The notes beneath the pieces were generated by a model. That model made no database searches, had not been told where the DNA came from, and was given only the letters and a program-made list of their open reading frames with translations. 64,000 nucleotides of DNA from Tildeniella nuda ZEHNDER 1965/U140. GTDB taxonomy: Bacteria > Cyanobacteriota > Cyanobacteriia > Leptolyngbyales > Leptolyngbyaceae. The stretch lies in the NCBI GenBank assembly GCA_019358895.1, contig JAHHIG010000001.1:372001-436000 (forward strand), written 5' to 3'. Position numbers and translations under genes: made by a program. Below, piece after piece: positions 30,544 through 36,271 of the stretch; position 1 is the first letter of the stretch; each line of letters starts with the position of its first letter.

Positions 30544-31455
30544 TTACTGAGGCTTGAATTCGACGACATCACGCTTGATGGTGACATCGTAGTCAGCGAA
30601 AAAGTCGTGACCTAGTAAGCCTATATCAAGGGCTGAGTTACCGATCGCAACCACAACGCCTTTAACGACTGCTCCACCCACCGCGATCGAACTGACATAA
30701 GCAAGAGGCACTTCCACGCCTTTGTCACTAGCCGTGTCTACCTTTGCTTTACCGATGACACTAACTCCTAAGGTCGATGCCATAGCGCTGGTAATGACAG
30801 TACCACTGGCTCCTGTATCGACAATCATTTCAAAGCTTCGACGACCGTTAAACGTGACATCAATAACGGGTGTGCCGCCCGCCCGCCGCTTGATTCTGGC
30901 TATGTAGACACGCCTTTTGCCGGACGCTGCGTTTGAAATGACTGCTTCAGGCTGGCTAGCAGGCACATTATCAGTACGAGGCGTGATGGGTAAAAAAGTC
31001 GGTTCAGAGGCAATTTCATTAGAACCTGCACGGGTCGCTTGTCGTTTGGCATAAGCAAGGTTACGTTGATATTCGGTCAACTTTGCTTTTGCCAGCGATC
31101 GATAAGGGCTGGTAGGTGGAATCGATCGCATGAATTGGATTGCCTGCTGCCAGCGGCTGGCAACCAAATTCCAATCGTCCCGTGACTGAGCTGAAACCGT
31201 AATATTACCAGCGCTATCAGCTTTCTCTAACGCAAGCTTGTAAGGGTCTAGATTGGTAGTGGCGGGCTGGGGTTTGAGAACAGATGACACCCCGCTAGCA
31301 TCGGGCGTAACATCATCAGAAGCAATGGGCGGAGACTTTTCGACACGCTCCACAGCCGTCCTGTCAGTAGTATGGCGGCTACAGGCAGTGCTTCCCAACA
31401 AAATCGTACCTGACAGTATGAGCAGAACGGCACCAGCGCAAGAGCGTTTTAGCAT
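30544..31455 (-). CDS. Lipoprotein with retropepsin-like aspartic-protease domain
   Basis: 303 residues. A type-II signal peptide has lipobox LGSTAC (Cys about 26), so the protein should be lipid-anchored in an envelope membrane. A Thr/Pro/Ser-rich linker and a helical segment (about 70-140, LALEKADSAGNITVSAQSRD) precede the C-terminal retropepsin-like domain. The catalytic motif is MIVDTGASGTVIT, and the flap-side end is IGLLGHDFFADYDVTI. Such single-domain proteases act as dimers. The target is unknown. It is divergent from carA. Confidence 0.87.
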   Translation of the reverse strand: MLKRSCAGAVLLILSGTILLGSTACSRHTTDRTAVERVEKSPPIASDDVTPDASGVSSVLKPQPATTNLDPYKLALEKADSAGNITVSAQSRDDWNLVASRWQQAIQFMRSIPPTSPYRSLAKAKLTEYQRNLAYAKRQATRAGSNEIASEPTFLPITPRTDNVPASQPEAVISNAASGKRRVYIARIKRRAGGTPVIDVTFNGRRSFEMIVDTGASGTVITSAMASTLGVSVIGKAKVDTASDKGVEVPLAYVSSIAVGGAVVKGVVVAIGNSALDIGLLGHDFFADYDVTIKRDVVEFKPQ

Positions 31456-31688
31456 GGGCTCAGAAAACTTATGAATGAGGTACGAATTGGAGGTGCATTT
31501 ACGCCTGTCAGGTTTAGATGCCTCACCTTAACTCTAGAGTGCCGCACTATAGGTACTCAACTAACTTACTCTATGAAAATAACAAACTGGACGGGGCTTC
31601 GCTTTGCCTTTCACATGCTTATGCTGAACTCCTGTCCCTGGTTGAGCATGGCATAATAAAACGTCAGTATCTGATTGCAAAAGTGATT

Positions 31689-32843
31689 ATGGTTTCTCCT
31701 ACTCAGCCCGCGTTGCTGGTTTTAGCGGATGGTACGTCTTACCACGGCTCGTCGTTTGGGGCAACTGGCACAGCGATCGGCGAGGTTGTGTTCAACACAG
31801 GCATGACAGGCTATCAAGAGGTTTTGACCGATCCCAGCTACTCTGGTCAGATCGTGACGTTTACCTATCCAGAACTGGGCAACACGGGCGTGAATGCGGA
31901 CGATGAGGAATCAGCTCAGCCACAAGTACGAGGAACGATCGCCCGCAATGTCTGCTTCAAGCCGAGCAACTGGCGATCGACGCAATCGTTACCTGACTAT
32001 CTGAAGCAACACCACATTTTGGCAATTTATGGCATTGATACGCGTGCCTTGACGCGTAAGCTCCGCTCAGCCGGAGCGATGAATGGAGCAATATCCACTG
32101 AGATTCTTGACCCTGCGGATTTGTTGGCGCATGTCCAAGATGCACCCAGCATGGCAGGACTCAATCTGGTACGCGAGGTGAGTACCAAAACGAGCTACGA
32201 GTGGTCGGGTGTCACGAACGCCGTTTGGGAGTTTGGACCCACTGCCCAGCCCGTCGATGCCGTCCCGCTTACGGTCGTTGCGATCGACTTTGGTATCAAG
32301 CGCAATATTCTGCGTCGTCTTGCTAGTTACGGCTGTCGTGTCATCGTCGTACCAGCCAACACGCCACCAGAAGAAATCCTCAAATACAACCCAGATGGCA
32401 TCTTTCTCTCAAACGGACCCGGTGACCCAGCCGCTGTAAGTGAAGGTATTGCGACGACCAAAGCGCTACTAGCTAGCCAAAAGCCGATTTTTGGCATCTG
32501 TATGGGACATCAGATTTTGGGGCTATCGCTTGGAGCAGAGACGTTTAAACTGAAGTTTGGGCACCGAGGTTTGAATCAACCCTGTGGGCTGCATCAAAAA
32601 GTAGAGATTACCAGTCAGAATCATGGCTTTGCGATCACTGCCGATTCACTGGCTACTGCTGATGTCGAAATTACTCACCTGAACCTGAATGATCAGACGG
32701 TCGCTGGCTTACGCCACAAGTCGCTGCCGTTGTTTTCTGTCCAATATCATCCTGAAGCAAGCCCTGGACCGCACGATGCTGATTACCTGTTCGAGCAGTT
32801 CGTGCAAACAATGCGAGCACAATTACCGATCGGTGCAAAGTAG
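31689..32843 (+). CDS. carA: Carbamoyl-phosphate synthase small subunit
   Basis: 384-residue glutaminase subunit that feeds ammonia to CarB for carbamoyl phosphate (arginine and pyrimidines). N-terminal domain: [16 protein letters not shown], then [18 protein letters not shown]. The class-I amidotransferase domain has the nucleophile Cys in [13 protein letters not shown] and the His-Glu pair in [13 protein letters not shown]. The ATG at 31689 is chosen over upstream in-frame codons back to 31518 because it starts the family-typical N-terminus. carB is not in the window. Confidence 0.96.
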
Positions 32844-32999
32844 AAAGGCAAAGAGAACGCAATTTCAGGCTTTCTTTTCCCTGTTCATCAACTATTCGCT
32901 AAGATAGCGGTACTTAAGGACAACCTCGCGGTAGCAGATTTGCTAGCCAGGATGTATACTTAAACGTCGAATCAAGGACTAAACAGCTAGGAGGGTTTT

Positions 33000-33368
33000 A
33001 TTCCTGAACAACTAACCCTGACGGTCAGCTTAAGAGGCGCACGCGAAGTTAGGGACAATTACCAGTTATTTCGCCTCACAGGTCTCTTGGATGCCTTCTC
33101 AGAGCCTACTTTTCGCAAGGTGCTAACTAAATGTGTGGAGGAGGGACCCAAGCACATCATTCTAGATCTATCCAAAATAGATTTTGTTGATAGTTCTGGC
33201 TTGGGTGCCTTGGTGCAGCTTGCTAAGAAAGCTCAGACCGCTGAGGGTACTTTGCAAATTGTCACCAACCCCCGTGTCACTCAGACAGTCAAGCTTGTGC
33301 GCTTGGAACAATTTCTGGCGCTTCAAACGTCGGTTGAGGTTGCGATCGAAAACGTTAAATCTACCTAA
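33000..33368 (+). CDS. STAS-domain anti-sigma-factor antagonist-like protein with apparent ATT start
   Basis: About 122 residues from ATT 33000. The STAS fold is shown by FRLTGLLDAFSEPTF, KHIILDLSKIDFVDSSGLG (Ser of DSSG is the phosphorylation site) and TVKLVRLEQFLALQ. The first recognised start codon in frame is TTG 33087, but that would remove the first STAS strand. The frame is open upstream to a stop at 32988 and contains no ATG, GTG or TTG before it. A strong Shine-Dalgarno AGGAGGG (32989-32995) lies four bases before ATT CCT GAA. The residues PEQLTLTVSLRGAREVRDN match the family N-terminus as I remember it. STAS proteins work in partner-switching regulation. Confidence 0.85.
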   Translation: MPEQLTLTVSLRGAREVRDNYQLFRLTGLLDAFSEPTFRKVLTKCVEEGPKHIILDLSKIDFVDSSGLGALVQLAKKAQTAEGTLQIVTNPRVTQTVKLVRLEQFLALQTSVEVAIENVKST

Positions 33369-33670
33369 GCTTTGGCTTCTGTTCACGGCGAAAGAGACAA
33401 CCAGGCGATCGCCAGTCTTCTGAAGCACCAACTAATTTAAGGCACCTGCTGAGCCAGACAATTTGCCCGTATTTGAGGGAGCTTGGTACTGCTTCTGAGA
33501 TGCTGTAATCCGCCGTTCTAATCAGAAGCTGTCCAAACTGCTTCTGATGTCTGACTTTTAAACTCGTTCACCACAGTTTGCTCCAGTTCAGTTTGTGGTC
33601 GCTTTTGCTAACGGTAGAGCTTGAACCAGGCGATCGAGCGCCATGCAATGACAGATTTATGAGCTAGCGT
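33369..33670. other. Gap with a 9-bp perfect hairpin
   Basis: 302 bases between the STAS and pterin-dehydratase genes. The only structure is ATCAGAAGC (33521-33529) / GCTTCTGAT (33540-33548) with a 10-base loop. It lacks an adjacent T-run, so it is not a clear terminator. No gene is seen. Confidence 0.4.
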
Positions 33671-34108
33671 ATGCGTTGGATTTGGCAAAGTAGCTTACAC
33701 AGGGTGTTTACCCTTTTCTTAGGGCTTTCAGTCATTATCTTCCTGCTCACCAGTCATTTGACCGCAGTTAACGCTAATCAAGTGACTGTCACCAAACCCC
33801 CTAAAAGCCATACTATGAGCATTCTTACGCCCCTCTCTAAAGAAGAATTGAATGCGGCGTTGGGGCAGCTCAACGGTTGGAGCATCAAGGACGGTAAACT
33901 TCATCGCCAGTTGCAGTTTCCGTCTTTCGTTGAGGCGTTTGGGTTTATGTCTAGCGTAGCGCTGGTAGCAGAGGCAGCCGGGCATCACCCAGAGTGGTCT
34001 AACGTCTACAACCGCGTCACTATAGACTTGACGACTCATGATGCAGGCGGCATTACAGCTAAAGATGTTGAGCTTGCCCGTAGAATAAATGCGTTAGCAG
34101 CAAAATAA
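33671..34108 (+). CDS. 4a-hydroxytetrahydrobiopterin dehydratase (PCD/DCoH) with signal-like N-terminus
   Basis: 145 residues. The C-terminal ~100 residues are pterin-4a-carbinolamine dehydratase, with active-site elements [14 protein letters not shown] and [10 protein letters not shown] including the conserved His residues. The enzyme recycles oxidised pterin cofactor. The first ~45 residues ([20 protein letters not shown], then IIFLLTS) form a hydrophobic signal or anchor segment not found in standard cytosolic PCD. An internal ATG at about 33814 ([12 protein letters not shown]) would give an ordinary cytosolic protein, so dual or later initiation is possible. A terminator follows at 34177. 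Confidence 0.88.
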
Positions 34109-34176
34109 GCGTGTTGCAGCTCGCTCGATTAGCCGCTCGATCGCACGATTGATTAGAACACAAGCAAGTTCAAAAG

Positions 34177-34206
34177 AAAGCCCCCAAAGGTTATTGGGGG
34201 CTTTTT
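34177..34206 (+). terminator. Rho-independent terminator after the pterin dehydratase gene
   Basis: The stem AAAGCCCCCAA / TTGGGGGCTTT has a 6-base loop (AGGTTA) and a T-rich end. The 331-base gap that follows holds only an unproven 53-codon open frame at 34220-34381. Confidence 0.9.
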
Positions 34207-34439
34207 GCATGAAGGAGTGATGAAGCGGATGGTTCAATTGTACTATTATGGCAATTGTTCGTCAAGCTTCTATGAATTTTTGAGCGGCAGGGATGAGTTT
34301 CCTAGCAAAAGGGGAAATTGTTACGGAATCACCGCTCACACGTGTGGAAAGTCTAGCAGTGGTTCAGCAGTCTCCACTTAGCTAATGCTTTGGCTACCAG
34401 ATGCTGCGAGTGCGCTTGCCCCAACCCAACAGATAGTCT

Positions 34440-34688
34440 ATGTTTTCTTTCTCCCCTGAAGCTCCAACTTCTACTCAAGCCCCAAATCCTGCATCAGCGA
34501 TGCCCACGACTGCGACCAAGCTGGCACCCGATGCTACTGTTACTGGCTTTCTGGTCATCGCGCTGACGCTCAGTCTGGCACTGATCCTCTTTGGAGCTAA
34601 AAAATATCGTGCTATCCAACGATCGCGCTTGCTAAAACGGCAAATTGCTATGTTAGAAGCCCTCTGGCGCATCAGTTCAACAAAATAA
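34440..34688 (+). CDS. Small single-pass membrane protein
   Basis: 82 residues. A Pro/Thr/Ala-rich N-terminus is followed by one hydrophobic helix (about 34-52, VTGFLVIALTLSLALILFGA) and a basic C-terminal tail (KKYRAIQRSRLLKRQ). No known family is recognised. It converges on the GAF/kinase-like gene at a gap of about 80 bases. The start at ATG 34440 follows ordinary sequence without a strong ribosome-binding site. Confidence 0.55.
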   Translation: MFSFSPEAPTSTQAPNPASAMPTTATKLAPDATVTGFLVIALTLSLALILFGAKKYRAIQRSRLLKRQIAMLEALWRISSTK

Positions 34689-34765
34689 GAGCACCAATTC
34701 CTTTTGCAGTAAGGCTTAGAAGCTCAAGGCGCTCATCGAAAAGCGGTTGCTTTTGGCAGCCTCGA

Positions 34766-36271
34766 TCAAGCGTTATCTGCTGTCGCCTCAGCCTTTTGTG
34801 GCAGGCTAATAACGTAGCGGTAGCCTGATTCAGAAACGCTTTGTGTGGTAATTTGACCCTTGTGCAGCTCAGCAAGTTGACGACTGAGCAGCAACCCTAG
34901 ACTTTTGTTGGGAGCCGTCAACGCCTCTCCTGTAGTACCGTTGAGCTGCTCTACTGGTTTTGCAGCTTTAGTTTTAGAACTGCTCTGGCTCAGCAGCACC
35001 TCTTTTGCTTCCAATGGAGACATAGAGCAGCTAGCAGCTAATTCTACACTTGACTGGTTAGCGATCGGCAGCGCTACAGAATGAGCACTGGCTTCCGTAT
35101 AGGGCAAGCCCTCGCCGAGCCACGGATGAGATACCCAGACAGCGAGACTGAGATTGCTGTTCCGGTAGGATACGTGGATGCGAACGATGCTGCCAGCGTT
35201 GGATGCTTGAATCACGCTGAAGATCAGGTGATAAAGCATTTGGCGGACTTTATCTTTATCGAGTAGCCAAATACGACGACCGGGTTCTACCGAGAGGTGG
35301 ATCTGCTGTCCGCGACGGTGGGCAGCCCCTTCTAGAGTACTAATAGCCTGTTGACAGAGCATCTCAATATCGACGGGGGCAAGCTGTAACTGGTTACTAT
35401 CGTTCAAGTTCGACAGTTCTAAAATTTCTTTGACCAGCGATAGCAAGTACTGTCCGCTGTGATGGATGATGTCTAGATATTCTTTTTGCTTGTTGGTGAG
35501 TGGTCCATAGATTTCGCGCGTTAAGACGCTTGCCATGCCCATAACGGATGTTAGGGGTGTACATAGCTCTTGCGTCAGTTGGCTGAGTAATTCGACTTTA
35601 AGCTGACTGGCGATCGACAGGCTAAGAGTAGCGGACGGTGTCTTGACAGTCGAGGCTTTGGCGCAGCTTTTACGAACGTCGCTCTTGGTCAACGTTGCTG
35701 GTACTGCTACTTGACTGTTGACAGCCTGCTGCCGCTCAAATTCGCTCATGCTCCAGCGGGCAGTCAGTTCCAAAAACTCGATATCCTTTTCAGTAAAGGG
35801 ATGCGACCTCAAGTCCATAGCAGCCAGAGTGCCAATACAGAAACCATGAGAGGTGATCAGCGGCACCCCAAGATATGCCCGTACGCCATATTGCTGTGTC
35901 AGCAGACTATTAGCAAAGGCGGGGTGAGTAAAGGTGTCCTCGATCGCCAGCACCTGATGGCTATCAACAACATGAACACAAAAAGACTCACCGCGAGGAA
36001 ACTGACGAGAGTTTGCCAGGTCACTCATTAACCCTAGCCGGGACAGCCCGACAAAGGACTTAAAGTGTTGACGTTGCTGATCCATCACGCTTAAGGTGCA
36101 GATAGGCATATTCAAAAAGTGCGCTGCTGTCTGAGTCGCTTCATCAAACACAGAGACATTCTTCAGCTCTACGATGCCTAGTTCTGCGATCGCTAGTATG
36201 CGTCGTTCCTCGCGTGCTGAGACGGTTTTACCGTCAAGGCGACAAAACAATCGATTGTCAGAGTCTATCAT
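34766..36271 (-). CDS. GAF-domain histidine-kinase-like protein lacking the phospho-acceptor His
   Basis: 501 residues. An N-terminal GAF sensor domain (about 30-180) contains FCVHVVDSHQVLAIEDTFTH, then AYLGVPLITSHGFCIGTLAA. A HisKA-like dimerisation region (about 225-285) has LTQELCTPLTSVMGMASVL where a kinase has SHELRTPL: Gln234 replaces the phosphorylated His. The HATPase-like region (from about 330) lacks a clear N-box Asn and has poor G-boxes. So it probably cannot autophosphorylate and may act as a GAF-dependent scaffold or partner. I recall related cyanobacterial proteins with the same TQEL sequence, so this may be a family trait and not a local mutation. Confidence 0.82.
   Translation of the reverse strand: MIDSDNRLFCRLDGKTVSAREERRILAIAELGIVELKNVSVFDEATQTAAHFLNMPICTLSVMDQQRQHFKSFVGLSRLGLMSDLANSRQFPRGESFCVHVVDSHQVLAIEDTFTHPAFANSLLTQQYGVRAYLGVPLITSHGFCIGTLAAMDLRSHPFTEKDIEFLELTARWSMSEFERQQAVNSQVAVPATLTKSDVRKSCAKASTVKTPSATLSLSIASQLKVELLSQLTQELCTPLTSVMGMASVLTREIYGPLTNKQKEYLDIIHHSGQYLLSLVKEILELSNLNDSNQLQLAPVDIEMLCQQAISTLEGAAHRRGQQIHLSVEPGRRIWLLDKDKVRQMLYHLIFSVIQASNAGSIVRIHVSYRNSNLSLAVWVSHPWLGEGLPYTEASAHSVALPIANQSSVELAASCSMSPLEAKEVLLSQSSSKTKAAKPVEQLNGTTGEALTAPNKSLGLLLSRQLAELHKGQITTQSVSESGYRYVISLPQKAEATADNA

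Follow-up and report, generated by a model that had tools for sequence, protein, structure and literature searches.

Partner switching that controls SigC has been reported in Synechocystis (PMC12329169). In that study, Kurkela et al. 2025 describe Ssr1600 as an anti-sigma antagonist for SigC that is phosphorylated by Slr1861. In high CO2, low Ssr1600 is reported to rescue a strain without the omega subunit and overexpression of Ssr1600 to slow growth; the native Synechocystis gene is reported to yield abundant phosphorylated Ssr1600. The ssr1600 gene was published with a TTG initiation codon (PMC12329169).

Among start codons, Belinky et al. reconstructed a single switch to AUU from 61,358 ancestral AUG starts and another single switch from 5,080 GUG starts (PMC5622118), which implies that AUU starts are rare. 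In E. coli and other bacteria, infC has an AUU-class start through which IF3 autoregulates its own synthesis. The infC start codon is reported to be ATT for E. coli, ATC for Streptomyces (PMC5472188), and AUA for S. aureus (PMC13009471), and pcnB is also known with a non-canonical start. Streptomyces sigR has a GTC start with AGGAGGTG and is reported to be repressed by IF3 (PMC5472188). The starts of S. aureus cvfC1 and ccpN have both been called conserved, that of cvfC1 among staphylococci (PMC13009471).

Results

The STAS locus of Tildeniella nuda

The window is the whole 64,000-nucleotide stretch of Tildeniella nuda DNA that was analyzed, and coordinates are counted from its first letter. 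The original prediction held that the frame of a STAS protein is open after a stop at 32988 with no ATG, GTG, or TTG until TTG 33087, and that AGGAGGG lies four bases ahead of ATT 33000. Both are seen in the sequence. Counted from ATT 33000, the frame has 122 codons and ends with TAA at 33366-33368; its earliest in-frame ATG, GTG, or TTG is TTG 33087, codon 30. The CTG at 33018 (codon 7), which the original prediction did not mention, is a permitted table-11 start too. The four bases of the spacer are TTTT. The features of the locus are as follows.

31518..32843, + strand: presumed carA-like gene that precedes the STAS gene (context only)
32988..32990, + strand: in-frame TAG stop, which overlaps the Shine-Dalgarno sequence and shuts the frame upstream
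32989..32995, + strand: AGGAGGG, extended Shine-Dalgarno sequence (motif and spacing counted across 175 genomes)
33000..33002, + strand: ATT, near-certain initiation codon, presumably decoded as fMet (codons counted in 175, then 201 genomes)
33000..33368, + strand: STAS-domain anti-anti-sigma protein, 122 aa, Ssr1600 orthologue by sequence (Pfam, TIGR00377, SpoIIAA structures, and model)
33018..33020, + strand: codon 7 (CTG), where the published ssr1600 TTG start most likely falls, rejected as start
33087..33089, + strand: TTG, codon 30, first ATG, GTG, or TTG in frame, rejected as start
33192..33197, + strand: Ser65-Ser66 in the DSSG motif, counterparts of the reported phospho-sites S59/S60 of published Ssr1600 (PMC12329169)

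The upstream gene at 31518..32843, which we take to be carA-like, was matched in 70 of 80 loci, some of them with short flanks. Among the matches listed, 40 of 40 carA-like positions were upstream of the STAS gene on the same strand. This arrangement (31518-33368 with the STAS gene) is widespread, and an obvious functional link is absent. The downstream gene at 33671-34108, presumably pterin-4a-carbinolamine dehydratase-like, was matched in 11 of the 80 loci, and its product has a hydrophobic N-terminal stretch that suggests export or a wrong start. Scans for promoters and terminators yielded hit numbers no higher than in shuffled sequence.

We also asked how often the motif occurs by chance. 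AGGAGGG is found five times in the window against 5.5 expected from shuffles. In the genome of T. nuda, AGGAGGGNNNNATT occurs nine times and its reversed control once, and the frames that open from ATT at the other eight sites run for 21, 1, 246, 1, 501, 19, 405, and 4 codons. The site with the 246-codon open frame (L333) has no canonical start beside its Shine-Dalgarno sequence. By itself, a Shine-Dalgarno sequence followed by ATT is weak evidence; the ATT start of the STAS gene rises above chance because it is conserved at the homologous position across orthologues.

Protein family and relation to Ssr1600

The protein matched Pfam STAS (PF01740, 1.5e-18), scored 63.9 bits against TIGR00377 (cut-off, 53.45), and matched SpoIIAA-type structures. 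Its predicted model has a mean pLDDT of 88.7, and of 91 over the first ten residues, with predicted strands at residues 3-5, 11-17, and 21-30. In an alignment of 68 sequences selected from the 175, S65, S66, and G67 of the D-S-S-G loop were invariant in all 68, as were T8, S10, L11, and G13 near the N-terminus. Nine of 19 matches to the HATPase_c_2 kinase domain in the same genome scored above the cut-off. Four lie in short frames of 148-154 aa that could encode partner kinases.

Sequence comparison identifies the protein as the Synechocystis Ssr1600 orthologue. The peptide used to raise the Ssr1600 antibody, LHNSLAEAIAATTEG (preceded by C in PMC12329169), equals the C-terminus of the orthologue in two near relatives (G112 and G128). 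When the published numbering was mapped to the G112 sequence at offsets 0-15 from ATT, L24 and G43 fit only at offset 6, and with that offset the published S59/S60 land on S65/S66. Offset 6 means that the published TTG of ssr1600 is most likely codon 7 of the ATT frame. The published overexpression construct then probably lacks the first six residues, and the recombinant Ssr1600 proteins perhaps lack them as well.

The start codon across cyanobacteria

The searches covered 39 genomes including that of T. nuda, a phylum sample of 386 genomes (185 with matches), and a named-genome collection (best 80 of 155 loci). In the phylum sample, 146 of the 185 matching genomes were read, and at least four of the other 39 belong to family f2; in family f21, 41 of 49 matching genomes were read. 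A further family set of 32 loci contributed 25 after removal of seven genomes already counted. For tblastn matches starting beyond query residue 4, the ATT position was reached by ungapped extension.

With a query that included the three codons before ATT plus the Ile, and could thus favor loci that keep them, the homologous codon of the 175 main genome loci was ATT in 139, ATC in 21, ATA in 13, ATG in one, and CTG in one. The 25 further genomes of one family had ATT (24) and ATA (1). Across all 201 genomes, which cover all 38 family codes with a match, the codon was ATT in 163, ATC in 21, ATA in 14, CTG in two, and ATG in one. ATT, ATC, or ATA thus stands in 198 of the 201 genomes read and 173 of the 175 in the main set, as also in 80 of the best 80 of 155 named-collection loci (ATT 73, ATA 5, ATC 2), whose genomes are partly the same as the 201. 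The exceptions are start codons too, ATG in one genome and CTG in two genomes of one genus, each behind a Shine-Dalgarno sequence. This conservation agrees with the original prediction of ATT as the start of the STAS gene, and it excludes a sequencing error at 33000-33002, the objection raised with that prediction. At the place of TTG 33087, the orthologues gave no sign of a conserved start.

The phylum-sample genomes with a match all belong to the class of T. nuda. One genome (G007, 82% complete) had no orthologue, its best match being 1.4e-7, and another (G140) had no match to the STAS query. In a third (G013, L268), the orthologue was split into two overlapping matches, query 1-82 and 78-124, and may be frameshifted or misassembled.

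Evidence for initiation at the ATT codon

The Shine-Dalgarno sequence, usually strong and at a fixed spacing, was the only upstream element seen to be conserved. Of 175 genomes, 136 have AGGAGG in the 14 nt before the start codon and 88 have AGGAGGG, and the aligned spacing was 5 nt in 143. This resembles the infC/sigR class, in which the start is a codon other than ATG, GTG, or TTG (a likeness judged purely by comparison) and the Shine-Dalgarno sequence is strong and closely spaced, although most loci of family f2 have a weaker Shine-Dalgarno sequence. At residue 2, 169 of 175 genomes carry P, A, S, T, or V, against a baseline of 41% for small residues, which fits removal of an initiator Met.

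The pattern of codon change also breaks at this point. In 713 related pairs, which are not independent, codons -12 to -5 were unconstrained and codons -4 and -3, which lie in the Shine-Dalgarno sequence, were almost fixed. In the same pairs, changes in codons 2-16 were mostly synonymous (codon 3, 0.37 synonymous and 0.05 nonsynonymous; codon 5, 0.63 and 0.00), with the exception of codon 4 (0.00 synonymous and 0.15 nonsynonymous). Taking these comparative data together, we consider it nearly certain that translation begins at ATT 33000.

We then weighed the other possible starts. The published TTG of ssr1600 (PMC12329169) would place initiation at codon 7, CTG 33018 here. The fit of L24 and G43 at offset 6, together with S59/S60, argues for that reading of the published numbering, and His-tagged Ssr1600 is reported to have bound Slr1861 and to have been phosphorylated (PMC12329169). 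However, codon 7 is CTA, TTA, CTC, CTT, ATC, or ATT in 81 of 175 genomes. The codon before TVSLRG, which is codon 7 in 172 of 175, was CTG in 60 loci, CTA in 58, TTG in 34, TTA in 12, CTC in seven, CTT in two, ATC in one, and ATT in one. Even in the two genomes whose C-terminus equals the antibody peptide, codon 7 is CTG (G112) or CTA (G128) and the AGGAGGG-ATT arrangement is intact. A start at codon 7 would also leave the Shine-Dalgarno sequence 22 nt away and would lose the amino acid constraint on codons 2-6 and the predicted strand there. We therefore give initiation at codon 7 scarcely any credence.

TTG 33087 is the first ATG, GTG, or TTG in the frame, which is what would recommend it as the start, with the part upstream being noncoding. 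The probability of this is practically nil. Four residues shared by all 68 aligned sequences, T8, S10, L11, and G13, lie upstream of it, and the synonymous pattern already begins at codon 2. The original prediction stated that this start would cut off the first STAS strand. A strand would indeed be lost, but the loss would be larger than stated: predicted strands 3-5 and 11-17 and most of 21-30. In the 124 of 175 genomes whose frame has no canonical start from the upstream stop to ATT, the next canonical codon downstream is scattered over codons 5-31, and 19 of them have none in codons 2-40.

The three main codons at the start position are exactly the Ile codons, and this would also be expected if ATT were internal, in some lineages or generally, to a frame opened by an upstream canonical start, a frameshift, or read-through. 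A canonical in-frame codon lies upstream of ATT in 51 of 175 genomes, within eight codons in 20, and a Shine-Dalgarno-like core precedes any such codon in one of the 51. Against this reading, the frame is closed by a stop upstream in 173 of 175 genomes, with the 124 noted above having no canonical codon between stop and ATT. A TAG stop stands at the equivalent place in 53 of 175, and in the window it overlaps the Shine-Dalgarno sequence. Codons -12 to -5 also lack amino acid constraint. An internal ATT is left with a negligible chance.

No conserved canonical start was found nearby, except for an upstream ATG in five small family f2 genomes (L271, L276, L278, L282, and L283). There, ATG lies seven codons upstream of ATC and is followed by similar residues (MPGGLEP, MPGGLDP, or MPGGVGP). 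The start in these five genomes may have moved to the upstream ATG, leaving ATC internal. ATC is the codon at 16 of the 18 loci read in family f2, a preference that may have its source in base composition, and its Shine-Dalgarno sequences are mostly weaker or differently spaced.

For the window itself, starts at codon 7, at TTG 33087, upstream, or via a frameshift are rejected by conservation, constraint, and predicted strands.

Probable selection on codon identity

By parsimony on the protein tree (175 loci), the start codon changed 17 times, compared with 48 changes (166 loci) and 25 changes (106 loci) for two internal Ile codons, and ATG arose once at the start position. ATT was in clear excess at the start when compared with one of these Ile codons (P = 5e-8), but the excess over the other was not significant (P = 0.06). 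The third base of the start codon is T, C, or A and almost never G. Any codon in this position would be read as Met at initiation, so the avoidance of G suggests selection on initiation itself.

We also considered that ATH is held as a DNA- or RNA-binding site or a structural element and not for its initiation efficiency, as the stretch from the Shine-Dalgarno sequence to ATT is the sole upstream noncoding DNA seen to be conserved. The tolerance of T, C, and A with near exclusion of G at the third base argues against this, as does the variation of the four bases between the Shine-Dalgarno sequence and ATT; Rfam gave no match within 31000-35000. Such an element is very improbable.

infC in cyanobacteria

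We parsed infC in 24 of 30 cyanobacterial loci, judging the start from in-frame codons; seven of 37 infC genomes gave no locus. All 24 carry ATG, GTG, or TTG in frame close to the N-terminus, and in most (L112-L141) the N-terminus has ATG, or CTG, TTG, or GTG followed by CCT-GTG. The infC gene of T. nuda (L139) has an ATG near the N-terminus. In these 24 of 30 loci, no ATT-class start was clear. In the parsed cyanobacteria, infC seems not to use ATT, and autoregulation of IF3 via AUU may be absent from the phylum.

Discussion

Our preferred explanation, which we consider probable, is that the ATT start is kept by selection on an IF3-discriminated codon and throttles the anti-SigC antagonist. 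The strong Shine-Dalgarno sequence at its fixed distance would position the 30S subunit, and the initiator tRNA would read AUU (AUC or AUA in relatives), presumably decoded as fMet. Selection across oxygenic cyanobacteria would hold the codon in the IF3-discriminated class and almost never at AUG. Repression of the AUU start by IF3, plausible by analogy with infC and sigR, would throttle the antagonist for a stoichiometric purpose. When IF3 discrimination is weak, antagonist output may rise and could lead to a growth-limiting state of RNAP-SigC. The near-universal retention of the codon suggests that poor initiation is itself useful. The abundance of phosphorylated Ssr1600 reported from the native Synechocystis gene implies that any throttle is not severe.

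The same sequence evidence would be expected if ATT were a constant low-efficiency start that sets dosage, with IF3 levels never varying enough to regulate. The S. aureus AUU and AUA starts are reported to give about 10% of AUG expression in minimal medium (RPMI), and in rich medium one of three starts rose clearly, one modestly, and the AUU start was unchanged (PMC13009471). For sigR, induction by oxidative stress was reportedly not demonstrated (PMC5472188). Nothing specific speaks against constant dosage, which is a weaker form of the IF3 throttle and overlaps with it, and its probability falls a little short of even.

A broader extension of the IF3 throttle is that the AUU-class start serves as a phylum-wide sensor tying a growth-limiting sigma switch to the status of initiation factors and ribosomes, with AUU control residing here instead of in infC since the last common ancestor. 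A shortage of IF3 relative to 30S subunits would then raise AUU initiation and antagonist levels and promote the growth-limiting RNAP-SigC program. We regard this extension as unlikely.

Our literature search found no earlier naming of an ATT start for the STAS gene, which is not proof of novelty, and two papers that mention both AUU start codons and cyanobacteria concern other genes. Proteogenomics of Nostoc 7120 is reported to have revised eight genes to ATA or ATT starts (PMC8557916), and these might include the STAS gene.

The protein made from the ATT start is a regulator that balances growth with inorganic carbon. A start of this kind is out of reach for gene finders that accept only ATG, GTG, and TTG. 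With a single-codon change in one tractable organism, it becomes possible to test whether genes beyond infC are regulated through IF3-discriminated codons. To our knowledge, few non-AUG starts other than that of infC would be as deeply conserved as the STAS start.

Compared with Ssr1600 of Synechocystis PCC 6803, the T. nuda protein shares its family, the role of an anti-SigC antagonist as judged by orthology, and the DSSG phospho-site; the antibody peptide matches the C-terminus of two near relatives, and the difference is the published TTG start, which corresponds to codon 7 of the present frame. With infC, the STAS gene shares an AUU-class start that would be under IF3 discrimination, but it is a regulator of a sigma pathway and not IF3. 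The parallel is plausibly with the mechanism of IF3 and not with infC autoregulation in cyanobacteria. Streptomyces sigR is reported to be similar in its non-canonical start, extended Shine-Dalgarno sequence, sigma/anti-sigma circuit, misannotation to a canonical codon, and in that one partner is kept limiting (PMC5472188). It differs in that its start codon is GTC and the gene, found in streptomycetes, encodes the sigma factor itself, whereas the STAS gene uses AUU, AUC, or AUA for an anti-anti-sigma protein in oxygenic cyanobacteria. S. aureus cvfC1 (AUU) and ccpN (AUA) share the extended Shine-Dalgarno sequence and were seen by ribosome profiling (PMC13009471), but they encode unrelated proteins in a narrower group. 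What is new among non-canonical starts is the depth of conservation and the circuit, that of an anti-anti-sigma protein.
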